Part shown: positions 34,038 to 63,068 of the stretch, piece by piece
Layout: each line of letters opens with the position of its first letter
Numbering within the stretch: the first letter of the stretch is position 1
IMG/VR virus record: IMGVR_UViG_3300027782_000034
Span: 108,720-172,719 of that record
DNA: 64,000 nt
DNA from: a virus
Reading direction: 5' to 3' (one strand)
Made by a program: the position numbers and the translations under genes
Notes under the pieces: generated by a model
Databases searched by the model: none
What the model saw: only the letters and a program-made list of their open reading frames with translations
Told to the model about the DNA's origin: nothing

Positions 34038-34229
34038 TTAGAATTGTTGTGACCAATTTTCAGTTGCAGAGCTATTAATAGCCCATACACCTGAATACGC
34101 ATTGTTTACAAATCTGGATTTTGACATTGCATTGAGATTACTCAACGACCAAATCCTATTTCTATGCCAACCTTTAGAAGGGAGTTTAGTATCCCATGAA
34201 CAATTTGCAGATCGTATTCTTCTTATCAT
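34038..34229 (-). CDS. Trp-rich array protein 18 (63 aa, last)
   Basis: Starts MIRRIRSANCSW; five Trp. It ends NWSQQF and, unlike the others, does not end in a Trp-Lys/Arg/Gly Shine-Dalgarno motif, fitting its place as the final member. Confidence 0.75.
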   Translation of the reverse strand: MIRRIRSANCSWDTKLPSKGWHRNRIWSLSNLNAMSKSRFVNNAYSGVWAINSSATENWSQQF

Positions 34230-34411
34230 TGGAACATTCCTTTCCAATAAGTAGTCCAGTCAAGAGACCAAGATTCTGATCTACTTGTGGCTACAAGAAC
34301 TCTCCAACTTGCAGACCAAGAATGATTTCTTGGATAAGAGTAACTCCAAACTATAGCTTCTGTAAAAGACTTAGATTGAGCTCCTGGAAATGAGTTAGTT
34401 CTTCTTATCAT
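34226..34411 (-). CDS. Trp-rich array protein 17 (61 aa)
   Basis: MIRRTNSFPG start, six Trp. The end TYWKGMFQ contains TGGAAAGGAA, the ribosome site for protein 18; ATGA overlap. Confidence 0.78.
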   Translation of the reverse strand: MIRRTNSFPGAQSKSFTEAIVWSYSYPRNHSWSASWRVLVATSRSESWSLDWTTYWKGMFQ

Positions 34412-34626
34412 TACCTCCTCCTTCTAGGTGACGGCCAGAGTGCAACCCCATAGTCAGACCATAGGTGACGATGCGCCCAGACTTTAGAAAATGCAGGGCC
34501 AGAACCCCAGCCTCCAAAGAATGGAACACCTGGCCCTTTAACAAGTGTGCCACCCCACGAAGACCAGACATAACTGTTGTCCCAAGATCCGGTCTTAGCA
34601 TGTATTCTGGCTACCTTTCTTATCAT
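34411..34626 (-). CDS. Trp-rich array protein 16 (71 aa)
   Basis: MIRKVARIHAK start, seven Trp, Gly-rich centre (VPFFGGWGSG). It is the most divergent in composition. The C-terminus PSPRRRR is encoded by AGAAGGAGGAGG, an unusually strong Shine-Dalgarno for the next gene; stop and start overlap as TAATG. Confidence 0.75.
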   Translation of the reverse strand: MIRKVARIHAKTGSWDNSYVWSSWGGTLVKGPGVPFFGGWGSGPAFSKVWAHRHLWSDYGVALWPSPRRRR

Positions 34627-34802
34627 GCGTCTGTTCTCCAACTCTTTGATCGAACCCAAATAGCTTCAGAGAATAGACGACACAAAGACCAGCAAGCAGC
34701 ACAACTGTGCAGAGAAAGCGACCAAGGGTTAGTTGATGTTGTAGACCTTTTCATTTCTATCGTCCAATTTTTAGACCGTGTTGACGATATTATCGTTCTC
34801 AT
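34623..34802 (-). CDS. Trp-rich array protein 15 (59 aa)
   Basis: Starts MRTIISSTRSKNW instead of MIRK, but keeps the ATGA overlap, Ser/Trp content (five Trp) and KSWRTDA end. A diverged member. Confidence 0.7.
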   Translation of the reverse strand: MRTIISSTRSKNWTIEMKRSTTSTNPWSLSLHSCAACWSLCRLFSEAIWVRSKSWRTDA

Positions 34803-34984
34803 TGATTTGTTCTCCAAGAGTGGGAACGGTTGTACCATATGGAACTACCAAAATCGCTATGGGTGCGCTCACGAAACCAGTTACCTGATTTTAAATCGTA
34901 ATGATCCCATTGATTAAACCACGAACATTTCTGTTGGCAATTCCAAACATCAGAGATGATTACTGCATTTGTTTTTCTTATCAT
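34799..34984 (-). CDS. Trp-rich array protein 14 (61 aa)
   Basis: MIRKTNAVIISDVW start, six Trp, end SHSWRTNQ with TGGAGAA as the next ribosome site. ATGA overlaps at both ends. Confidence 0.77.
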   Translation of the reverse strand: MIRKTNAVIISDVWNCQQKCSWFNQWDHYDLKSGNWFRERTHSDFGSSIWYNRSHSWRTNQ

Positions 34985-35157
34985 TGAGAATTCCTTCCCC
35001 AGCACCTAGCCTTTACCCAAGTATTAGTCCAAGACCCAGAATCATAATTAGACATAGACCAAGACCAAGACTCACGCCATTCTTCTGTCCAATCCCAAGA
35101 TCTAGCACAATCCCGAGAAAAAGTCGTAGCAGCAAAACATTTTGTTTTTCTTATCAT
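34981..35157 (-). CDS. Trp-rich array protein 13 (58 aa)
   Basis: MIRKTKCFAATT start, eight Trp including SWSWS, C-terminus RCWGRNSQ (GGGGAAGGAA). ATGA overlaps at both ends. Confidence 0.8.
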   Translation of the reverse strand: MIRKTKCFAATTFSRDCARSWDWTEEWRESWSWSMSNYDSGSWTNTWVKARCWGRNSQ

Positions 35158-35345
35158 GTGCTGGTGCTCCAAGAATAAGAAGTAATTTCACCATCTTGAC
35201 CGCTAACAGATTTCCAACGAAGCCTAGTCCAACAAAAATTAATAACACTACGCTCTCGCATATCGAAGTCTGTATTGTCAACACTAGCGGAAGGTTGAGA
35301 TGTAGACCAAGCACAACCTCCCATAGCTAAAGTTTTTCTTATCAT
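35154..35345 (-). CDS. Trp-rich array protein 12 (63 aa)
   Basis: MIRKTLAMGGCAW start. Only four Trp, the fewest, and a more normal composition; ends SYSWSTST with TGGAGC. ATGA overlaps. Confidence 0.75.
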   Translation of the reverse strand: MIRKTLAMGGCAWSTSQPSASVDNTDFDMRERSVINFCWTRLRWKSVSGQDGEITSYSWSTST

Positions 35346-35506
35346 ATACGCCCTTTCCAAGATTTAGACCAAGACCCAGACCAAAACCAAGGCACAGACC
35401 AAGGCCAAGACCAAGACCCAGACCTAGGCCAAGACCCAGACTCAGCCCCAGACTCAGACCAAGACCCAGACTCAGACCCAGACCCAGACCATATTTTTCT
35501 TATCAT
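35342..35506 (-). CDS. Trp-rich array protein 11 (54 aa), low-complexity
   Basis: MIRKIWSGSGSESGSW start; ten Trp in 54 residues, almost entirely Ser, Gly, Trp and Pro. The DNA is built from TCTGGG/TCTTGG hexamers, suggesting growth by slippage. It ends KSWKGRI with TGGAAAGGG. Too short for usual gene-length cutoffs. Confidence 0.78.
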   Translation of the reverse strand: MIRKIWSGSGSESGSWSESGAESGSWPRSGSWSWPWSVPWFWSGSWSKSWKGRI

Positions 35507-35679
35507 ATATGTCCTTTCCAAGATCTAGAGCTAGCCCAGTGCCAAGACCAGGACCAAATCATAAACGAAGACCAAGACCTAATCCCGGGCCAAGACTCAG
35601 CCCAAGACTTAGACCTAAACGCAGAGCAATGCCAAGAAAGGGACATAGCCCCAGAATCAGGTCGCATTTTTCTTATCAT
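35503..35679 (-). CDS. Trp-rich array protein 10 (58 aa)
   Basis: MIRKMRPDSGAMSLSW start, nine Trp including IWSWSWHW, end RSWKGHI. Shares the TCTTGG hexamer bias and C-terminus with protein 11, so these two are probably the most recent relatives. ATGA overlaps. Confidence 0.78.
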   Translation of the reverse strand: MIRKMRPDSGAMSLSWHCSAFRSKSWAESWPGIRSWSSFMIWSWSWHWASSRSWKGHI

Positions 35680-35849
35680 GTGTTATTCCTCCATACCCAA
35701 GAACAACACCCAAACTTAGTCCAACATACAGAGTAATTGTCGGACCTACGCCAAACCTCGCACACCCAACTCCAATTCTCAGAACACCCAGACTTGCACG
35801 TAAATCCCGCCCAAGCTATAGTTCTAGGCCGTGCTAGCTTTCTTATCAT
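35676..35849 (-). CDS. Trp-rich array protein 9 (57 aa)
   Basis: MIRKLARPRTIAW start, seven Trp and five Cys (CKSGC, CEVW, CCSW). Ends SWVWRNNT with TGGAGGAA. ATGA overlaps. Confidence 0.78.
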   Translation of the reverse strand: MIRKLARPRTIAWAGFTCKSGCSENWSWVCEVWRRSDNYSVCWTKFGCCSWVWRNNT

Positions 35850-36028
35850 ATATCTCCTTTCCAAGAGGAAGATTCTATATTGTCCTCAGCCCAAGACCCG
35901 CCAATACGCCATTCTTCTGTCCAAAGATGAGCCCATGTAGGCCAAGGTCTATATTTAGCCAAACACCAAGACATGTTCGTATCTAAAGACCAAGAGAAAG
36001 ATTGGCCAAAAGCTTTTCTTCTTATCAT
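35846..36028 (-). CDS. Trp-rich array protein 8 (60 aa)
   Basis: MIRRKAFGQSFSW start, eight Trp (PWPTWAHLW), end SSSWKGDI with TGGAAAGGAG. ATGA overlaps. Confidence 0.8.
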   Translation of the reverse strand: MIRRKAFGQSFSWSLDTNMSWCLAKYRPWPTWAHLWTEEWRIGGSWAEDNIESSSWKGDI

Positions 36029-36201
36029 CGGAAAGAACTCCAAGAATTAGATCTGAGTTTTGGAAAGACCCACAAGTAGGACCAAGCTTTTCCGGAAGGC
36101 GTAGCGGTGGCTCTGTGCCAGTTCCGTGTAAAGCAAGTTCCCCATAAAAACAAGTCTGACCAATCTCTTGATCTAGGAGTTATTAATGTTTTTCTTATCA
36201 T
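36025..36201 (-). CDS. Trp-rich array protein 7 (58 aa)
   Basis: MIRKTLITPRSRDW start, six Trp, end SNSWSSFR with TGGAGT. Its composition is closer to ordinary proteins. The start lies one base after the stop of protein 6. Confidence 0.75.
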   Translation of the reverse strand: MIRKTLITPRSRDWSDLFLWGTCFTRNWHRATATPSGKAWSYLWVFPKLRSNSWSSFR

Positions 36202-36202
36202 G

Positions 36203-36385
36203 TTATCTCCATCCTATTCGCAGAATAGCTAGGGTCCAGTTTCTAGATTTCCACGCATAGCTGTAATGCCAGCGTCCGGGCCAGCCTAGAGATCCAGAAC
36301 CGGATAACAAAGACGCAGACCAGTACACAGACCCAGCCCAGTTACGAGATAGTTTTTCAGGTTCTCTCATTGTTCGTTTTATCAT
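36203..36385 (-). CDS. Trp-rich array protein 6 (60 aa)
   Basis: MIKRTMREPEKLSRNW start, seven Trp, end RIGWR followed by TAA. TGGAGATAAC doubles as the next Shine-Dalgarno. Confidence 0.78.
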   Translation of the reverse strand: MIKRTMREPEKLSRNWAGSVYWSASLLSGSGSLGWPGRWHYSYAWKSRNWTLAILRIGWR

Positions 36386-36582
36386 ATGTGGTGCTTCCAA
36401 GATCTAGGGGTGGAATCGACTACGAATTTAGAACGCAGTCTAGCTTGAGGCCAGCACTTAGTGTAAGTTTGACTTAAATGCCAGTTCCAACTCCAAGGCG
36501 CAGCCCAAGAGTGATGATGGCACCAAGAAAGACCTATGGACCAAGCTTCAGTTTGAGAATTTGCCAATACTTTTCTTATCAT
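36382..36582 (-). CDS. Trp-rich array protein 5 (66 aa)
   Basis: MIRKVLANSQTEAW start, eight Trp including APWSWNW and CHHHSW, end RSWKHHI. The His/Cys/Trp cluster could bind metal. ATGA overlaps. Confidence 0.79.
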   Translation of the reverse strand: MIRKVLANSQTEAWSIGLSWCHHHSWAAPWSWNWHLSQTYTKCWPQARLRSKFVVDSTPRSWKHHI

Positions 36583-36812
36583 GTGTCTTCTCCCCATGAC
36601 TCGGATGTAGGTGAAGACATAACAGCTGTCGCCGACCAAACCCAACCCCAAGAAGAAAAAGAAGACCAAGACTTTGCCCAAGCCCTAGTTAAACTCCAAT
36701 TTCCAAATCTGTACCTAGAATCTGACCAAGCTGCAGATTCAGTTTCGCCCCAAGGCTTATCCATAGCACCTCTCCAAGAGTATGACCCTCTATATGATAT
36801 TTTTCTTATCAT
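36579..36812 (-). CDS. Trp-rich array protein 4 (77 aa)
   Basis: MIRKISYRGSYSW start, ten Trp (SSWGWVWS), longest member; end SESWGEDT with GGGGAGAAG. ATGA overlaps. Confidence 0.8.
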   Translation of the reverse strand: MIRKISYRGSYSWRGAMDKPWGETESAAWSDSRYRFGNWSLTRAWAKSWSSFSSWGWVWSATAVMSSPTSESWGEDT

Positions 36813-36961
36813 AAGTTATTTCTCCAAGATTTAGACTTAGGACAATGCTTTTTCCATATCCAAGACCTAGACCAGCTTTTAAAAGTAAACATCCAGTGAC
36901 AAGCTGTAGGGTAAGACAAAGCCCAAGAATAAGTTTGAGAATATATTGTTTTTCTTATCAT
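36809..36961 (-). CDS. Trp-rich array protein 3 (50 aa)
   Basis: MIRKTIYSQTYSW start, six Trp, basic C-terminal half (SWIWKKHCPKSKSWRNNL). Shortest member. ATGA overlaps. Confidence 0.75.
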   Translation of the reverse strand: MIRKTIYSQTYSWALSYPTACHWMFTFKSWSRSWIWKKHCPKSKSWRNNL

Positions 36962-37167
36962 AAGTTATCCCTCCAATGCCAAGATTCAATTCTATTTTTA
37001 ACCCAAGCACCAGACCTAGCCCAAGACCCAATCCCAGACCAAGATTTAGCATAATTTTGAGACCAAGCCACAGCCACATATTGAGGTGCAAATGGCATCC
37101 AAATAGATGTATTAAAATTCTCGGCCCAAGACTCAGACCCCGCAAAATCTATACTTCTTCTTATCAT
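36958..37167 (-). CDS. Trp-rich array protein 2 (69 aa)
   Basis: MIRRSIDFAGSESW start, eight Trp, end ESWHWRDNL with TGGAGGGATAAC. ATGA overlaps. Confidence 0.79.
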   Translation of the reverse strand: MIRRSIDFAGSESWAENFNTSIWMPFAPQYVAVAWSQNYAKSWSGIGSWARSGAWVKNRIESWHWRDNL

Positions 37168-37349
37168 CGGTATTCCCTCCATGCTGTAGTGGAAATAACT
37201 TCACTATGTGACCAGTTAACTGACCAAGGCTGTATCACTGTTCTATTACATGAATACACGCAGTAGACTGTTCTAAAAGTGCTACAAGTCCAACCATTGG
37301 TCCAGAGCTGTGCTCTGGACCACGGCGGAATAGATCTTATTATTCTCAT
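37164..37349 (-). CDS. Trp-rich array protein 1 (61 aa, first)
   Basis: Starts MRIIRSIPPW, a variant of the MIRK start, with six Trp and four Cys. Ends AWREYR with TGGAGGGAA. It follows the 105-aa gene by 12 bases. Confidence 0.74.
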   Translation of the reverse strand: MRIIRSIPPWSRAQLWTNGWTCSTFRTVYCVYSCNRTVIQPWSVNWSHSEVISTTAWREYR

Positions 37350-58364: not shown

Positions 58365-58403
58365 GAAAAAAACCTTCCCATTGCGTTGTAGCAATAGGAA
58401 GGT
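58365..58403 (-). terminator. intrinsic terminator downstream of csrA
   Basis: Stem ACCTTCC + ATTGC pairs with GCAAT + GGAAGGT (one mismatch each side), followed in the minus direction by TTTTTTTCTT. It closes the csrA transcript. Confidence 0.85.
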
Positions 58404-58477
58404 AACGGCCGCAGTATGAGATTCATTATTATTGCAATAAAGCAACAATAACAAATCGCATACTGCGACCATTGGGA

Positions 58478-58666
58478 TTACCCAACTATCCCCGCCATCT
58501 TGGCGGGGTTTGCGGAGAGTTCACCTCTCCGCACTTTTACTTCCCTTGGGGCATCAACCCCAAGGGAAACTCTGCCTGTACTAGTGTGCAAGATGTGCAC
58601 ACTAATCTCTCGACCATCAAGGTCGAGAACAATTATCTCACCTGGCTTTCTGGTTAGAACTAGCAT
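58478..58666 (-). CDS. csrA: CsrA family translational regulator
   Basis: The 62-aa protein matches CsrA along its length: MLVLTRKPGEIIVLD (beta-1 with the RNA-binding Leu4 and Arg6), ISVHILHTSTGRVSLGVDAPREVKVRRGEL, then a short helix. CsrA dimers bind GGA motifs in mRNA leaders and control translation or stability. The start overlaps the previous stop (TAATG). A phage copy may adjust host metabolism or its own small-gene cassettes next door. Confidence 0.93.
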   Translation of the reverse strand: MLVLTRKPGEIIVLDLDGREISVHILHTSTGRVSLGVDAPREVKVRRGELSANPAKMAGIVG

Positions 58667-58980
58667 TACTCATCTCCTGTATAAAAGTAACCAATCGAAT
58701 TTAGCTCGTCTAGTTGATCCCAATCCACGGTTTTCCGTGGATGAGCGAACAGTTCTACCAGCTGCTCGGGACTGTAAAAGTCCGAGGTTTCCTGATCTAG
58801 ACCGACTTTTTCGGGGTCGAACGCATCCAACTGAAACCCTTTTGGCAATCGTTTACCTCTACCTTTGAGCCGCTTGGCCTTCTGGGCCAAGGCATAGAGT
58901 CTTGCCTTGGTGCCTTGGGAATCGTCATAAACCCCCGCCTCCGGCTGAACGCTCTTTTGAAACTGCATAGTCAGAGTCAT
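58666..58980 (-). CDS. hypothetical protein co-transcribed with csrA (104 aa)
   Basis: Start MTLTMQFQKS at 58980 with GGAGATTAGCG upstream; the stop overlaps csrA's ATG. Basic middle (KRLKGRGKRLPKG), acidic end. Upstream leader carries a CCCCTTG/CAAGGGG hairpin at about 59011-59034. Unknown. Confidence 0.62.
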   Translation of the reverse strand: MTLTMQFQKSVQPEAGVYDDSQGTKARLYALAQKAKRLKGRGKRLPKGFQLDAFDPEKVGLDQETSDFYSPEQLVELFAHPRKTVDWDQLDELNSIGYFYTGDE

Positions 58981-59043
58981 CGCTAATCTCCATGGCACTA
59001 GAATACCCCCTTGCGCTTGTGCCTCACACAAGGGGTTGAAAAG

Positions 59044-59241
59044 TTAAATTAATACCACCACCACAATTGCCACCGCTACCATCACGATTGCAGCCGAGGC
59101 TGCTCGCAGCACCAGACGCATTATGCGTCTAACCTTACGCATTTCTTTGACTAGCTTAACCGGAGTACCGTGAGGTACTCGTAAAAGTTCCGCCTCCTCC
59201 TCCGACAACTCTCCATAGAACGGACAAGTATAAGGACTCAT
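59044..59241 (-). CDS. small membrane protein (65 aa), cassette 1
   Basis: Soluble N-terminal 45 residues with a basic stretch (EMRKVRRIMRLVLR), then a C-terminal transmembrane helix (AAIVMVAVAIVVVVLI). GGGAGA is 8 bases before the ATG. Tail-anchored topology likely. Preceded by a terminator-like hairpin of the repeated type. Confidence 0.62.
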   Translation of the reverse strand: MSPYTCPFYGELSEEEAELLRVPHGTPVKLVKEMRKVRRIMRLVLRAASAAIVMVAVAIVVVVLI

Positions 59242-59263
59242 GATAGAGTCTCCCTGCTACAAA

Positions 59264-59301
59264 TAAAAACCCTCACCTGCTGTAGCGAGCAAGCGAGGGT
59301 T
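59264..59301 (-). terminator. repeated cassette hairpin 1
   Basis: AACCCTC...GAGGGTT stem with a Gly/GCTTG-like middle and following T-run (TTTTTATTTG) in the minus direction. One of five related hairpins at 59.26-60.91 kb that separate the small genes. Confidence 0.75.
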
Positions 59302-59308
59302 GAAAAAA

Positions 59309-59407
59309 TTACTTATGGGAACCTAGGCCACTTAAGGCCATGTCCACCGAGTAAACTGAAACCACTACGAACACAACCAAACCAACTACCCAAATAAACA
59401 ATTCCAT
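59309..59407 (-). CDS. 32-aa membrane peptide, cassette 2
   Basis: MELFIWVVGLVVFVVVSVYS followed by VDMALSGLGSHK: one transmembrane helix and a short tail. GGGAGATATC is 7 bases before the ATG. Below usual gene-length cutoffs but well supported by the cassette layout. Confidence 0.55.
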   Translation of the reverse strand: MELFIWVVGLVVFVVVSVYSVDMALSGLGSHK

Positions 59408-59441
59408 CTCGATATCTCCCTGCTCGATACTTGCTACAAAT

Positions 59442-59475
59442 AAAAAACCCTCACTTGCTGTAGCTCAAGTGAGGG
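59442..59475 (-). terminator. repeated cassette hairpin 2
   Basis: Perfect 10-bp stem CCCTCACTTG/CAAGTGAGGG with an 8-base loop (CTGTAGCT), then TTTTTTATTTG in the minus direction. Confidence 0.85.
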
Positions 59476-59490
59476 GGTTACAATGAAGAC

Positions 59491-59518
59491 TGACCTTTTA
59501 ACGCCTTGCCGAGGGCGA
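59491..59518 (-). ncRNA. pseudoknot-family element (e), degenerate
   Basis: Stem CGCC/GGCG and TTAAAAGG match the family, but the second stem does not form. Either a decayed copy or coincidence. Confidence 0.35.
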
Positions 59519-59677
59519 TTAGAATTTTCATCTACTTCCCATTTGCCTCTGGTGGGTTACCATATCTAACTTTGCAGCCATTAGTACTAGTTCACTTCGC
59601 CGGTTGGCAGTACCTCATCATTATCAAGCCAAGTAGGCAGGCCGATAACTTGAAGTGAACTCTTTCCCCTACCTTTA

Positions 59678-59706
59678 AAAGCCTTTTAACGTCTTGCTTA
59701 GGACAT
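59678..59706 (-). ncRNA. pseudoknot element (d) after the 60-aa gene
   Basis: Minus strand: TAA, 4-base spacer, ATGTC-CTAAGCAA-GACGT, TAAAAG, GCTT. Stem 1 has one G-U; loop AAGC pairs with GCTT. Confidence 0.5.
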
Positions 59707-59710
59707 GAGA

Positions 59711-59893
59711 TTAGTTCATCCCGCAGCAATTAGCACGAGGATAAAACTCGCCTTCCACGAGGTATGTCCCAGTCCATACCTCTTTGCAGGAATTGCACCT
59801 GCTAACTTCTGTTATCGCAGGGTTGTTGATATCCAACCCTGCGATAAATTCTTGGTGATCCTGATCATCATCGGGCGACTCATAATCGTCCAT
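59711..59893 (-). CDS. small zinc-binding protein (60 aa), cassette 3
   Basis: Acidic N-terminus (MDDYESPDDDQDHQEF), then CNSCKEVW and NCCGMN, a likely four-cysteine site. AAGGAGATATC is 5-7 bases before the ATG. The stop is followed within a few bases by pseudoknot element (d). Confidence 0.62.
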   Translation of the reverse strand: MDDYESPDDDQDHQEFIAGLDINNPAITEVSRCNSCKEVWTGTYLVEGEFYPRANCCGMN

Positions 59894-59927
59894 GTTGATA
59901 TCTCCTTACTCGATTACCTACTACGAA

Positions 59928-59965
59928 TAAAAAACCCTCGCTTGCTGTAGCTGGCAAACGAGGGT
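59928..59965 (-). terminator. repeated cassette hairpin 3
   Basis: Stem CCCTCG-TTGC pairs with GCAA-CGAGGG with one mismatch, loop TGTAGCTG; T-run TTTTTTATTC follows on the minus strand. Confidence 0.8.
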
Positions 59966-59975
59966 AACAATATCA

Positions 59976-60005
59976 TTAAGCCTTTTAATGTCTTGCTTAG
60001 GACAT
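59976..60005 (-). ncRNA. pseudoknot element (c) after the tail-anchored gene
   Basis: Minus strand: TAA, ACC, ATGTC-CTAAGCAA-GACAT, TAAAAG, GCTTA. Stem 1 is a 5-bp perfect pair; loop TAAGC pairs with GCTTA (5 bp). The clearest member. Confidence 0.55.
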
Positions 60006-60008
60006 GGT

Positions 60009-60206
60009 TTACTTGTAGTAGTATGCGCAAGTGACTGCACATACTGATATTGCCAATATGAGTAAATCACTTGCTATGTCCTTTGCTTTAGCTGCAAAAG
60101 ATCTTTCCGGTGGCTCATAATTTTTGAGTATGTCGTGAATAGCTGACATCTCCATAGCAGTGAGCTTTCCCTCGGCTAACCTATGAAAAACTTGTAGATC
60201 GTTAAT
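60009..60206 (-). CDS. small tail-anchored protein (65-67 aa), cassette 4
   Basis: Soluble helical part, then a C-terminal transmembrane helix ending VCAVTCAYYYK. GGAGG is followed by a TTG two bases later and by an in-frame ATT 7 bases later. The sister cassettes keep GGAG about 7 bases from an ATG, so ATT (60206) may be the real start; TTG at 60212 is the alternative. Its C-terminus resembles the 49-aa protein at 60371. Confidence 0.5.
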   Translation of the reverse strand: MNDLQVFHRLAEGKLTAMEMSAIHDILKNYEPPERSFAAKAKDIASDLLILAISVCAVTCAYYYK

Positions 60207-60231
60207 GGTCAATCCTCCATGCTACTTGGTT

Positions 60232-60272
60232 AAAAGAAAACCCTCGTTTACCAGTAGCGGGTAAACGAGGGT
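60232..60272 (-). terminator. repeated cassette hairpin 4
   Basis: Perfect 11-bp stem CCCTCGTTTAC/GTAAACGAGGG; TTTTCTTTTA follows on the minus strand. Stem bases differ from copies 1-3 but pair, which indicates selection for structure. Confidence 0.85.
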
Positions 60273-60293
60273 CAATAGTTAAGGTTGCCCTCA

Positions 60294-60320
60294 TATAATA
60301 ATGACACCGAATTGCCATTT
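60294..60320. repeat. 27-bp direct repeat, copy 1
   Basis: The element beginning CTCATATAATAATGACACCG and ending AATTGCC is repeated exactly at 61708-61734. In this copy it forms the right arm of a GCCCTCA/TGAGGGC stem downstream of the 49-aa gene. Confidence 0.75.
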
Positions 60321-60336
60321 ATTTAGCTGAGGGCTG

Positions 60337-60365
60337 CAAGCCTTTTAATGTCCTGCTTAGGACTA
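60337..60365 (-). ncRNA. pseudoknot element (b) after the 49-aa gene
   Basis: Minus strand: TAA, GCAGCTA, GTCC-TAAGCA-GGAC, ATTAAAAG, GCTTG. Stem 1 of 4 bp; loop AAGC pairs with GCTT. Confidence 0.5.
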
Positions 60366-60370
60366 GCTGC

Positions 60371-60520
60371 TTATGCCTTGTAATAGGCACAAGCAACTAA
60401 GATTGAAACTAAAAGAACTAAGGCTGGGATAAGAGTCTCCCACCTTGGTTCTTTTGTGAAGTGATACCTTGTCCGCCGGATGACGGAAAACAAGGATTTT
60501 TGAACTATCACATTTTCCAT
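60371..60520 (-). CDS. 49-aa tail-anchored protein, cassette 5
   Basis: Start MENVIVQKSLFSV at 60520 with AAAGGAGG spaced 7 bases. A basic segment (IRRTRYHFTKEPRW) precedes a transmembrane helix ending VACAYYKA, like the cassette 4 protein. Confidence 0.62.
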   Translation of the reverse strand: MENVIVQKSLFSVIRRTRYHFTKEPRWETLIPALVLLVSILVACAYYKA

Positions 60521-60542
60521 TAATACCTCCTTTGATGTCGGC

Positions 60543-60845
60543 TTAGGCTGGGGTAGCTGTAAATCTGCGTTGAGCTTTCCAAACTTTTTCAAGTTTGTTT
60601 AGTGCCTCAACTTGTTCTTTTTCCCACCGGTCTTCACCAACAATTATGGCGCGGCTTCCCGCTACCAAGTCTCGTGCCCCCACCCCCAGCTGGTCAAGAA
60701 ACAAATAATGGCATACACAAGGTATGCCATTAGGCTCCTCCCGCACTTCACTAATGCTGCCATCATCAAAGAGGAGAGTAAAAATATCTTTTTGATAGCT
60801 CCCTTGCCCGTATAGGGTATGGTAACCCAGTGCTACTTTAGTCAC
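60543..60845 (-). CDS. hypothetical protein (100 aa), cassette 6, GTG start
   Basis: GTG at 60845 with GGAGAATAAC upstream; a TTG 12 bases earlier lies inside the Shine-Dalgarno region and is rejected. Starts TKVALGYHTLYGQGS; central VCHYLFLDQLG. Its stop lies within a CCTAAGC sequence that resembles the loop of the pseudoknot family. Unknown. Confidence 0.6.
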   Translation of the reverse strand: MTKVALGYHTLYGQGSYQKDIFTLLFDDGSISEVREEPNGIPCVCHYLFLDQLGVGARDLVAGSRAIIVGEDRWEKEQVEALNKLEKVWKAQRRFTATPA

Positions 60846-60861
60846 GTTATTCTCCAATAGT

Positions 60862-60905
60862 TAAAAAAAGAAAACCCTCACTTACCATTAGTTGGTAAGC
60901 GAGGG
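60862..60905 (-). terminator. repeated cassette hairpin 5
   Basis: Stem CCCTC-CTTACC pairs with GGTAAG-GAGGG with one mismatch; TTTTCTTTTTTT follows on the minus strand. Confidence 0.85.
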
Positions 60906-60921
60906 CGGGTAATAATAACAA

Positions 60922-60950
60922 TGAGCCCTTTAACGTCGGCTCAGGACGGG
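60922..60950 (-). ncRNA. pseudoknot element (a) after the 221-aa gene
   Basis: Minus strand: TAA, ACCC, CGTC-CTGAGCC-GACG, TTAAAG, GGCTCA. Stem 1 is CGTC/GACG; loop TGAGCC pairs with GGCTCA (6 bp). Compared with element (c), the changes in both stems keep pairing. Confidence 0.55.
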
Positions 60951-60952
60951 GT

Positions 60953-61618
60953 TTAGCCATTCAGAAACTGTATCCAGCTTCTGTGGCTTTTTTCATTAGC
61001 CACTGAAGCAGCAGCTTCTGCCTCTTCGTATGTTTCAAATCCGCCGCTTTCAACGGCCCTCACTACAAACGTGGGGTAATGCCCACAGTTGTAGTAATAC
61101 GGATTTACGTCTACCAACCGAAACTTTGAGGGTCTTTCTCCCTCTGGGCCGTAGCAATCCGACAGTTCACGAGCTAGGCAGAGCTCTTGCTTTTCGGCCT
61201 CTTCCAAGAAATGGTTTTCCCTAAATTCCTCGATCATCTCACGCCACTTGGCCGTGTTAGCCAAGTACGACTTTTTCCAGCCGCCATACTTTTCAAAGAT
61301 GTTTCGTTTAAGGTCTGACCTTTCTTCGGCCCTCTTTTGATCCGCCTCGTAAGCGGCACGACCCTCCGCAGCCATTTTTTGGATGTGAGACACCGGACAC
61401 CCTTGCCCCATCAACTGTGCCACTCGGGTGGCCCAGAAGTTGTTCCCACAAAACAAGGCCGCAGCCTTGTCTAGCTGGTCTTTTCCGTGACGAATGTCAC
61501 GGAGGTTTGTGCAACCTGTCGAATATCTAGTCCCCTTTACAGGAACTGAGTACTCTCGTCCCTCACCGTCCGACGTTGGATTGATGTAGGCCGTCAACTT
61601 AGATTGTATAATATTCAC
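60953..61618 (-). CDS. hypothetical protein (221 aa), GTG start
   Basis: GTG start with AGGGAGACTTTGCA upstream. Charged helical centre (EERSDLKRNIFEKYGGWKKSY) and several Cys in the C-terminal third. Unknown; same leader style as the small cassettes. Confidence 0.65.
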   Translation of the reverse strand: MNIIQSKLTAYINPTSDGEGREYSVPVKGTRYSTGCTNLRDIRHGKDQLDKAAALFCGNNFWATRVAQLMGQGCPVSHIQKMAAEGRAAYEADQKRAEERSDLKRNIFEKYGGWKKSYLANTAKWREMIEEFRENHFLEEAEKQELCLARELSDCYGPEGERPSKFRLVDVNPYYYNCGHYPTFVVRAVESGGFETYEEAEAAASVANEKSHRSWIQFLNG

Positions 61619-61707
61619 TGCAAAGTCTCCCTACTAGATACCTAGAAACAGAACTCCTAACTCTTGCTAGCACTAGCAAGTAAAGAAAGGGTTCAAGAGC
61701 TAATCGC

Positions 61708-61734
61708 TCTCATATAATAATGACACCGAATTGC
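61708..61734. repeat. 27-bp direct repeat, copy 2
   Basis: Exact second copy of the element at 60294-60320, here directly after the 101-aa gene and before an AGAGC/GCTCT hairpin. Confidence 0.75.
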
Positions 61735-61746
61735 CTATTATTTAGG

Positions 61747-62052
61747 CTAAAAAGTGTAGGCTGTAACCTTACCGCCAGCGGAGATTAATACACGGACTTT
61801 GTCTGCGTTTACCATTTGTTTAAGCTTCTGTTTCTTCTCAATACTCATGGAGACAATCGATTGCTTAATGCCATTGATTGCTTGAATCCTTCTTCCAGCT
61901 TTCTGGCTGCATCGCCCACATCCCGATGACTTAGCTTTTATAGTACTCTCGGAACCTGCCAAGAAAGGAAACTCTTGCACGAAGCTAGGATTGCCAATCA
62001 TACCTAGCAGTACGGATTCTTCTAGGATTAACAGTTTGTTTAGTTCGGCCAT
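61747..62052 (-). CDS. small Cys-containing protein (101 aa)
   Basis: ATG at 62052 with AAGGAAGACAAGCC upstream. A CGRCSQKAGRR element in the middle and helical ends. Adjacent to the FISUMP gene; possibly virion-associated. Unknown. Confidence 0.62.
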   Translation of the reverse strand: MAELNKLLILEESVLLGMIGNPSFVQEFPFLAGSESTIKAKSSGCGRCSQKAGRRIQAINGIKQSIVSMSIEKKQKLKQMVNADKVRVLISAGGKVTAYTF

Positions 62053-62081
62053 GGCTTGTCTTCCTTGTAGTTAATAGATTC

Positions 62082-63068
62082 TTATGGGGTAGGTGGAGCA
62101 CCTTGTTTTAATCGTACAGAATATCCAACTGTTGAACTATCGCCACCGATGTAAACAGTAGAAGCACCATTGTTAAGATTAACACATGTAGTTTGATCGT
62201 AAACCCAGAAGCTGCCTCTTGCATTAAGATTAATAAAGCTACCTGTTCTGCAGCCAGCTGGTACTCCAGAGAAACCACTTTCATTTGTTGCAACATTAGG
62301 AGAATTCCACAACCCATCATTATTTGCAAGCGTGCCTGTCGTCTTCATCTTGGCCCCTGCAACAAACCATATGCCACCGCCTGTATCTGTGCCACCTAGG
62401 CATGTGATTAAAGTTACCCATTCTGCTAGAGTCGGCACATGGAAGCCCACTGGAGCTAATCCCCTAGCATCAGTCACAGCAAACCAATTGTAAAGTTTGC
62501 CGTAAATATCATTGTTCAAAGGGTCATTATTATAATAACACCAGCCTGGGCCTGTGGCAGCATTCCAAGCTGCCTGATCTGTAATTTGAGGAATAGGATT
62601 GCCATTCCTAAATGTTGTACCGGTAAAGTTTGTAAGTTCCCAGCCGGTAATACATGGAGGTGTAGAAGGAAGCCACACAGTTTGAACCACTTGTAGTTGC
62701 TCTAGTCGCTCCATCGCACCGAGCAGCTCTTGTACCTGTGCTTGAATCTCTTCCCAAATACTGTCTGCTTGAGCTGTGGAGGCTACATCTAATTCAATGT
62801 AATCTAGGCGATAGTAAGGCCAGTTCAAATCCGGATTTGGAGCTCCTGCAGGAACACCGGCAATCTGTTGGGGTCCAGCTACAGCTTCAAATATGTCCGT
62901 GGATAGCGTAGTGTAAGGACTAGGCGGGTTACGGCGGTACACAAAAACATTAGCGTCTATATCGGGTCCGGTTACCGCAGTGACATCTACTCGTAAGCGG
63001 TAGGTCCCATAATTTGTGTATGAAGTAGCGGTGGTTGCAGATCGTGTAAGGCATATGCGTCGAGTCAT
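62082..63068 (-). CDS. FISUMP-domain protein (328 aa)
   Basis: Residues about 150-325 match the 'Fibrobacter succinogenes major paralogous' domain: GKLYNWFAVTDARGLAPVGF, HVPTLAEWVTL, NNDGLWNSPNVATNESGFSG, AGCRTGSF and SVRLKQ. The first 130 residues are a separate beta-rich and then coiled-coil part. FISUMP domains occur in secreted and surface proteins of Bacteroidetes and Fibrobacteres and in phage tail or decoration proteins. A receptor-binding or virion surface role is inferred. Confidence 0.78.
   Translation of the reverse strand: MTRRICLTRSATTATSYTNYGTYRLRVDVTAVTGPDIDANVFVYRRNPPSPYTTLSTDIFEAVAGPQQIAGVPAGAPNPDLNWPYYRLDYIELDVASTAQADSIWEEIQAQVQELLGAMERLEQLQVVQTVWLPSTPPCITGWELTNFTGTTFRNGNPIPQITDQAAWNAATGPGWCYYNNDPLNNDIYGKLYNWFAVTDARGLAPVGFHVPTLAEWVTLITCLGGTDTGGGIWFVAGAKMKTTGTLANNDGLWNSPNVATNESGFSGVPAGCRTGSFINLNARGSFWVYDQTTCVNLNNGASTVYIGGDSSTVGYSVRLKQGAPPTP

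Follow-up and report, generated by a model that had tools for sequence, protein, structure and literature searches.

Four small genes in a 64,000-nucleotide stretch of viral DNA (the window, which is the end of the 172.7-kb IMG/VR virus record IMGVR_UViG_3300027782_000034, positions 108720-172719) are each followed by a short RNA pseudoknot. We found that these four elements are members of a widespread cis-acting RNA family of phages and prophages, an H-type pseudoknot of 26-29 nucleotides (nt), typically 28, whose first stem (S1) covaries freely. The family consensus is S1 (3-5 base pairs (bp), sequence free)-C-URAGC-AN-S1´-UUAAA(AG/CU/CG)-GCUYA, in which C is loop 1 (L1), URAGC pairs with GCUYA as stem 2 (S2), AN is loop 2 (L2), UUAAA with its two variable bases is loop 3 (L3), and the core is nearly invariant. 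No Rfam 15 family matched at or above its gathering threshold, and the best weak matches, at E up to 10, resemble chance. We also found no earlier description in the literature searched, of which the coverage was partial, so that a prior description is possible. The element is best called a new family within a known kind, the cis-acting structured RNAs of phage mRNAs.

All four elements lie on the minus strand, each 3´ of a small gene ending in TAA, with the spacers of 3-7 nt that an earlier note on this DNA had given without naming the strand. By direct reading, PK1 (60922-60948) begins 4 nt after the stop of a 221-amino-acid (aa) gene (60953-61618) and runs TAA-ACCC-CGTC-C-TGAGCC-GACG-TTAAAG-GGCTCA, with S1 CGTC/GACG, L1 C, S2 TGAGCC/GGCTCA and L3 TTAAAG. 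PK2 (60338-60363), 7 nt after the stop of a 73-aa gene (60371-60592), runs TAA-GCAGCTA-GTCC-TAAGC-A-GGAC-ATTAAAAG-GCTT, with S1 GTC(C)/(G)GAC, S2 TAAGC with GCTT and L3 ATTAAAAG; in the family-wide register it is better drawn as GTC/GAC with loop C and an AG linker, the pairing still being intact. PK3 (59977-60005) starts 3 nt after the stop of a 67-aa gene (60009-60212) and has the order TAA-ACC-ATGTC-C-TAAGC-AA-GACAT-TAAAAG-GCTTA (S1 ATGTC/GACAT, L1 C, S2 TAAGC/GCTTA, L2 AA, L3 TAAAAG), and PK4 (59678-59706), 4 nt after the stop of a 60-aa gene (59711-59893), has the order TAA-TCTC-ATGTC-C-TAAGC-AA-GACGT-TAAAAG-GCTTT (S1 ATGTC/GACGT with one U-G pair, L1 C, S2 AAGC/GCTT, L2 AA, L3 TAAAAG). 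Set in a fixed 4-bp register, the stop-to-S1 spacers of PK1-PK4 are 4, 6, 4 and 5 nt. The compensatory change in S2 that the note reported, from TAAGC to TGAGCC/GGCTCA, is seen in PK1 relative to PK2-PK4.

Such a cluster is not expected by chance: a pattern allowing at most three mismatches matched four times in the window, against 0.56 expected, and none of 100 shuffles reached four. All four elements fit the family consensus with a covarying S1, as judged by model matches and pair counts. A covariance model built from elements elsewhere together with PK3 (one of its 105 sequences) scored PK3 at 48.4 bits (E 4.9e-13), PK4 at 36.7 bits (E 1.8e-9), PK2 at 32.7 bits (E 3.1e-8) and PK1 at 30.8 bits (E 1.2e-7). 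The same model found a degenerate fifth copy at 59489-59519 on the minus strand (14.4 bits, E 0.013), in which S1 (CGCC/GGCG) and GTTAAAAGG are kept and S2 is lost; over the rest of the 172.7-kb record it found no further convincing copy. A separate sequence at 60547-60534 on the minus strand, CCTAAGCCGACATC, resembles the 5´ half of the pseudoknot without a 3´ half, and its TAA is the stop of the gene at 60543-60857.

The evidence for an RNA structure comes mainly from outside the window. A first pattern scan of IMG/VR found the element in 23 other stretches, and pattern scans that left S1 free yielded 248 non-redundant instances. Two scans, each with one stem unconstrained, provide an unbiased test of pairing. 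When S1 was free, the inner three S1 pairs formed in 114 of 121 unique matches (a few of which derive from the other scans) and all four pairs in 93, compared with 22.9 expected from shuffled 3´ sides. The variants include GTC/GAC, GAC/GTC, GCC/GGC, CAC/GTG, CTC/GAG, TAC/GTA, AAC/GTT and CCC/GGG. When two inner positions of S2 were free, GA/TC, AA/TT, GA/TT and GG/CC predominated. Among the matches listed for a separately collected L3 variant, UUAAACU, the inner three S1 pairs were kept in 110 of 113 unique sequences, and this variant is also common, since its scan gave at least 113 unique matches.

Covariation was measured against shuffles and against structures slid by 1-3 columns in either direction. 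In 105 distinct sequences with S1 unconstrained, 96.8% of the predicted pairs are standard, compared with 81.8% after shuffling and 18-42% in the slid structures; the covariation score of 0.410 (0.127 when shuffled) was reached by none of 500 shuffles, and each of the four S1 pairs, together with one pair of S2, changes on both sides. Across the 248 instances, six predicted pairs (5-16, 4-17, 3-18, 9-29, 6-15 and 10-28) are within the eight strongest column couplings, the other two being an artefact of the search pattern (24-25) and a coupling in the flank (31-32). Within a single homologous cluster of scaffold genes, S1 alternates among GCC/GGC, GTC/GAC and GAC/GTC, and S2 among TAAGC/GCTTA, TGAGC/GCTCA and a G-U form; because both stems switch inside one cluster, the changes must be repeated events rather than a single inherited difference. 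A copy in a Moorella phage carries yet another S2, TGGGC/GCCCA. The note was thus right in describing covarying H-type pseudoknots directly after stop codons, which recur well beyond this contig in IMG/VR and in genomes with covariation far above all controls, and the support is stronger outside the window than inside.

Among 147 non-redundant elements that lie outside open reading frames (ORFs) and have both neighbors, 128 are in the sense orientation between co-directional genes, and one is in the fully antisense arrangement. Only 3 of 236 elements fall inside a same-strand ORF of at least 100 aa. For these 236, measured in the 4-bp register, the distance from stop codon to S1 peaks sharply at 5 nt (36 elements), with 6 at 4 nt, 10 at 6 nt, 5 at 7 nt, 4 at 8 nt, and none at 0-3 nt. 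The window elements follow the same rule, being intercistronic, in sense, and with S1 at least 4 nt past the stop in this register. The commonest stop before the element is UAA (47 of 64), and the flanks are poor in G. On the 3´ side, only 6 of 127 starts supported by a Shine-Dalgarno (SD) sequence lie 5-14 nt after the element, compared with 41 at 15-29 nt, the commonest class. With its usual beginning about 5 nt past a stop, and with most gene starts at least about 15 nt beyond its 3´ end, the element should stay folded both when a ribosome terminates and when one initiates. Judging from known ribosome footprints, the commonest arrangement would fill just the gap that neither ribosome covers. 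Not all instances are so placed. For many, including much of the scaffold group, the nearest clear stop is 10 to more than 100 nt away, and starts in the scaffold group are about 55-100 nt 3´ of the element.

We suggest, with a probability of about 40%, that the element is a ribosome-proof roadblock in the mRNA, which limits the passage of exonucleases at cistron boundaries so that segments differ in lifetime. Resistance to exonucleases, the direction of protection and the effect on expression are all proposed here from the structure, orientation, position and distribution of the RNA. In this model, the pseudoknot would stay folded while the genes on both sides are translated, and would stop or slow incoming exoribonucleases, namely the 5´-to-3´ RNase J where the host has it and possibly 3´-to-5´ enzymes. 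Parts of one polycistronic phage mRNA could then decay at unequal rates, with, for example, a scaffold-capsid segment outlasting the portal segment beside it. Scaffold and capsid are required in more copies than portal. Such a roadblock would need no regulon, would accept any neighbors, and would help wherever adjacent genes need different mRNA levels. An exonuclease block was one of three functions that the note had listed, and of these it best fits the anatomy of the element, the blocking itself being what we propose.

Known systems share parts of this model. REP-type intercistronic decay barriers, as in malE-malF, give segments of one polycistronic mRNA different stabilities; the likeness lies in the proposed role, REP sequences being chromosomal hairpins and the present element a phage pseudoknot family that spans several phyla. 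The exoribonuclease-resistant RNAs (xrRNAs) of flaviviruses and plant RNA viruses resemble our element in the action proposed for it, the halting of an exonuclease by a compact pseudoknotted fold that needs no protein. They differ in their larger size and in having the eukaryotic Xrn1 as their target, and resistance is only proposed for our element. A precedent is the T4 gene 32 mRNA, in which a pseudoknot lies 67 nt upstream of the start, RNase E cuts at -71, 4 nt before the pseudoknot, and the processed mRNA is very stable, the most stable of T4 (PMC3014915). Gene 32 shows the use by phages of a pseudoknot between cistrons, beside a cleavage site, in a highly stable transcript (PMC3014915).

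The hosts in which the family occurs are suggestive of a link to RNase J. In GTDB, the motif is carried chiefly by genomes of Firmicutes (Bacillus, Lachnospiraceae, lactobacilli and Staphylococcus), joined by cyanobacteria, two Deltaproteobacteria records, Chryseobacterium, Patescibacteria and one gammaproteobacterial metagenome-assembled genome (MAG). Convincing or close matches are present in the named phages LL-H, KC5a, Page, Staphylococcus phiIPLA7 and B166, Rhizobium RHph_Y65, Vibrio 1.245.O, the crAss-like cr52_1 and cr7_1, Nostoc NMeng1, Microcystis Mwe-JY13, Mycobacterium Labelle and Moorella MTATph1, several of these copies having a weakened S2 or an altered L3. Matches to coliphage phiEcoM-GJ1 found by BLAST were dropped as members, reaching only 12 bits with a broken S1, and a match in Stenotrophomonas phage BUCT702 was not counted for gammaproteobacterial hosts, its flanks being common to another locus of our set (L024). 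In random genome samples of five classes, from which seed genomes were excluded, matches occurred in 9 of 249 Bacilli, 3 of 244 Clostridia, 4 of 240 Cyanobacteria, 0 of 228 Gammaproteobacteria and 0 of 246 Bacteroidia. The RNase J family TIGR00649 was found in B. subtilis, L. lactis, S. elongatus, Caulobacter and Corynebacterium, and did not exceed its cut-off in any of 36 gammaproteobacterial or 40 Bacteroidia genomes. Matches were thus confined to the sampled classes with RNase J (16 of 733 genomes versus 0 of 474, Fisher p = 4e-4), a restriction that is statistically suggestive rather than absolute, and a comparison whose few matches and confounding by prophage number and phage type count against the roadblock.

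Other observations weigh against it as well. Good matches exist in crAss-like phages (loci L278 and L407) and in Vibrio Schitoviridae (L272), the hosts of which probably lack RNase J. The same is true of two seed genomes that carry the element, Chryseobacterium sp. E1 and the gammaproteobacterial MAG, which are probably also without RNase J. Terminator-like hairpins follow three of the four window elements and would be superfluous for a protector of downstream mRNA. Finally, the sharp 5-nt spacing could equally reflect coupling to translation termination. The broadest form of the proposal is that double-stranded DNA phages possess an exoribonuclease-resistant RNA of their own, independent of the xrRNAs of eukaryotic viruses, in which a 28-nt pseudoknot stops RNase J, and perhaps 3´-to-5´ enzymes, at cistron boundaries and shapes the stoichiometry of late mRNAs in phages of Firmicutes, cyanobacteria and other hosts; taken whole, we regard this as doubtful.

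Coupling to translation is the substance of the strongest rival, a translation insulator, which we consider unlikely but which accounts for the 5-nt spacing equally well. Here the pseudoknot would abut the terminating ribosome and block 70S scanning and re-initiation, or tune termination, such that cistrons are translated independently. The mode at exactly 5 nt (36 elements, against 6 and 10 at the adjoining distances of 4 and 6 nt) recalls the spacer of frameshift-stimulating pseudoknots, and the prevalence of UAA is also in keeping with an insulator. On the other hand, an insulator explains poorly the many instances that lie far from any clear stop, and in some cases that appear to be 3´-terminal, the same strand has no nearby gene that could be insulated.

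A translational operator or riboswitch is improbable. In this role the invariant core would control the next gene by binding either a small ligand or a protein of phage or host, in the way that gp32 is bound by the T4 gene 32 pseudoknot. In favor of this reading, L1, L2, L3 and four of the five S2 base pairs hardly vary, although pairing alone would suffice. Such constancy suggests recognition or a tight tertiary structure, but it was partly imposed by the search patterns. The genes that follow are unrelated, however. In phages of Firmicutes the next gene often encodes a head-scaffolding protein (phrog_194, 172 and 2303; PF06810, PF14265), as in phages LL-H, KC5a, phiIPLA7, B166 and LLC-1; elsewhere it encodes PhoH, glutaredoxin, primase, single-stranded DNA-binding protein (SSB), glycosyltransferase or a protein of unknown function, and Hsp20 is a recurrent upstream gene. 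Moreover, the element keeps its place behind one gene while the downstream gene differs. One upstream family at 10 loci is followed by 7 unrelated downstream genes, and one downstream family, the scaffold cluster, at 13 loci is preceded by 11 unrelated upstream genes. We could attribute the element to neither neighbor, homologous pairs being symmetric (85 downstream-only, 75 upstream-only). Because either neighbor changes while the element stays, it acts as a boundary mark and not as the operator of a single gene. We saw no anti-SD pairing and no SD sequence in the 3´ side of S2 in the sequences read, and terminator-like sites are near background (7 of 232, or 3.0%, downstream, compared with 1-4 of about 200, or about 1.5%, at control offsets). 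The riboswitch-like element that the note had allowed for is therefore unlikely, given that the downstream genes share no theme or pathway and the alignments read hold no expression platform.

The same holds for a ribosome standby site or translation enhancer, which would attract the 30S subunit, or protein S1, to a site ahead of the SD sequence and which we likewise give a low probability. The peak of starts at 15-29 nt (41 of 127) would suit it, but the starts of the scaffold group are too distant, and those in the window are about 75-125 nt from the element with a hairpin in between. Still less probable is a processive antitermination or transcription-pausing RNA of the put type that acts on RNA polymerase. 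Three of the four window elements do precede terminator-like hairpins within an apparent operon, but such sites are not clearly enriched elsewhere, and the element is often deep in operons, far from promoters. With terminator-like sites at background, antitermination and 3´ attenuation were both rejected as the general role.

A recombination cassette acting at the level of DNA, as has been proposed for the PeSL of T4-type phages, would supply intergenic homology for the swapping of small genes. It draws on the islands of 89-100% identity that element and hairpin form among often unmatched genes in relatives of this phage. Yet S1 covaries and the orientation is strand-specific, which shows selection on a folded single strand, and shuffling can be a by-product; we think a primary role of this kind very improbable. 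Stop-codon readthrough, which the note had also offered, we rejected as scarcely credible: the spacing resembles that of known readthrough pseudoknots and at spacer 5 the motif is open in the frame of the stop codon, but the in-frame extension is short, with a median of 21 codons at spacer 5 and 3 codons at spacer 4, spacers 4 and 7 meet a stop within 3-4 codons, the frame is not conserved, and UAA is preferred.

Within the window, the elements occupy a block of small, exchangeable genes. The four genes upstream of PK1-PK4, all on the minus strand, are of unknown function by the ORF list and Pfam scan, with no Pfam match for the 221-aa product. Terminator-like hairpins with a T-run, also on the minus strand, stand 3´ of PK1 (60874-60906, fold z -5.0), PK2 (60239-60273, z -5.6) and PK3 (59934-59965, z -4.7), each just before the next gene; association with a hairpin is not a trait of the wider family. 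Two more such hairpins on this strand, at 59475-59448 and 59301-59268, make five in all. The five share a common sequence with compensatory differences, and each abuts the next start, with no obvious space for a promoter. Compared with window positions 58400-62200, related phages (L008, L016, L018, L022 and L027) have element-plus-hairpin cassettes that are 89-100% identical, while the genes between them often have no match, the 221-aa gene being unmatched over most of its length. These conserved cassettes are reminiscent of PeSL, mobile regulatory cassettes that occur in T4-type phages.

Other features of the window were noted in passing. A 40-nt intergenic repeat occurs at 60287-60326 and 61706-61745 (93% identical), the first copy being flanked by short complementary ends. 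On the minus strand are a CsrA-family gene (58478-58666; PF02599, E 7.8e-16) and a gene for a protein with a Fibrobacter succinogenes major domain (62082-63068; PF09603, E 2.3e-27), which may be part of a tail fibre or a module for binding the host. Farther away, at 34200-37200 on the same strand, about 12 consecutive short ORFs of 50-80 aa have coding parts rich in 6-nt repeats of the CCAAGACC type (S/W-rich). Most have an internal ATGATAAGAAA (MIRK) start that apparently overlaps the previous stop (ATGA), with TGGAG ahead, and the row has the look of mini-genes arranged in tandem with their translation coupled.

Some loci elsewhere have unusual neighbors. A family element lies 3 nt before a tRNA-like gene in Nostoc phage NMeng1 (L277, 2501-2605), and another about 185 nt before a tRNA-like gene in Mycobacterium phage Labelle (L405, 2001-2288). 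In a Deltaproteobacteria MAG (L206, 3071-3102) and in Desulfomonile (L237), elements lie between genes without obvious phage origin, the neighbors being a cytochrome c assembly protein and a P-type ATPase in one case and a ketopantoate reductase neighborhood in the other.

Among known pseudoknots, the operator of gene 32 in T4, T2 and RB69 is similar in being a compact H-type pseudoknot between cistrons of a polycistronic phage mRNA. It differs in that it serves one gene in one phage group and is bound by gp32, whereas the present family precedes unrelated genes. The window elements are not in a gp32 (SSB) leader; their neighbors are genes of unknown function, and neighbors across the family are diverse. 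A related sequence, with S1 intact and S2 broken, does occur between a stop codon and gp32 in Synechococcus phage S-CRM01 (L282, 2501-2525). The preQ1-I riboswitch and the frameshift pseudoknots of luteoviruses have a similar size, topology and A-rich third loop. However, our element gave no preQ1-I match in Rfam and has no SD sequence in the 3´ side of S2, and, unlike the luteovirus pseudoknots, it follows stop codons and is not within genes. The STAXI motif, also a simple pseudoknot found by comparative genomics, is repeated two to three times near DNA-manipulating genes (Weinberg 2010, PMC2864571), and none of the Rfam families matched our element. A ToxI-type RNA antitoxin of a type III toxin-antitoxin system was considered and rejected, given single copies between genes and no ToxN-like Pfam match among the window neighbors scanned.

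A small, strongly covarying RNA is thus present at gene boundaries in phages of Firmicutes, cyanobacteria and Alphaproteobacteria and in crAss-like phages, including well-studied phages of Staphylococcus and Lactobacillus. Should it prove to be an exonuclease barrier, it would reveal how a single phage mRNA can yield portal, scaffold and capsid in set relative amounts, and it would offer a portable part for the tuning of operons. Whatever the mechanism, the element is common and short, and can be tested in laboratory phages.

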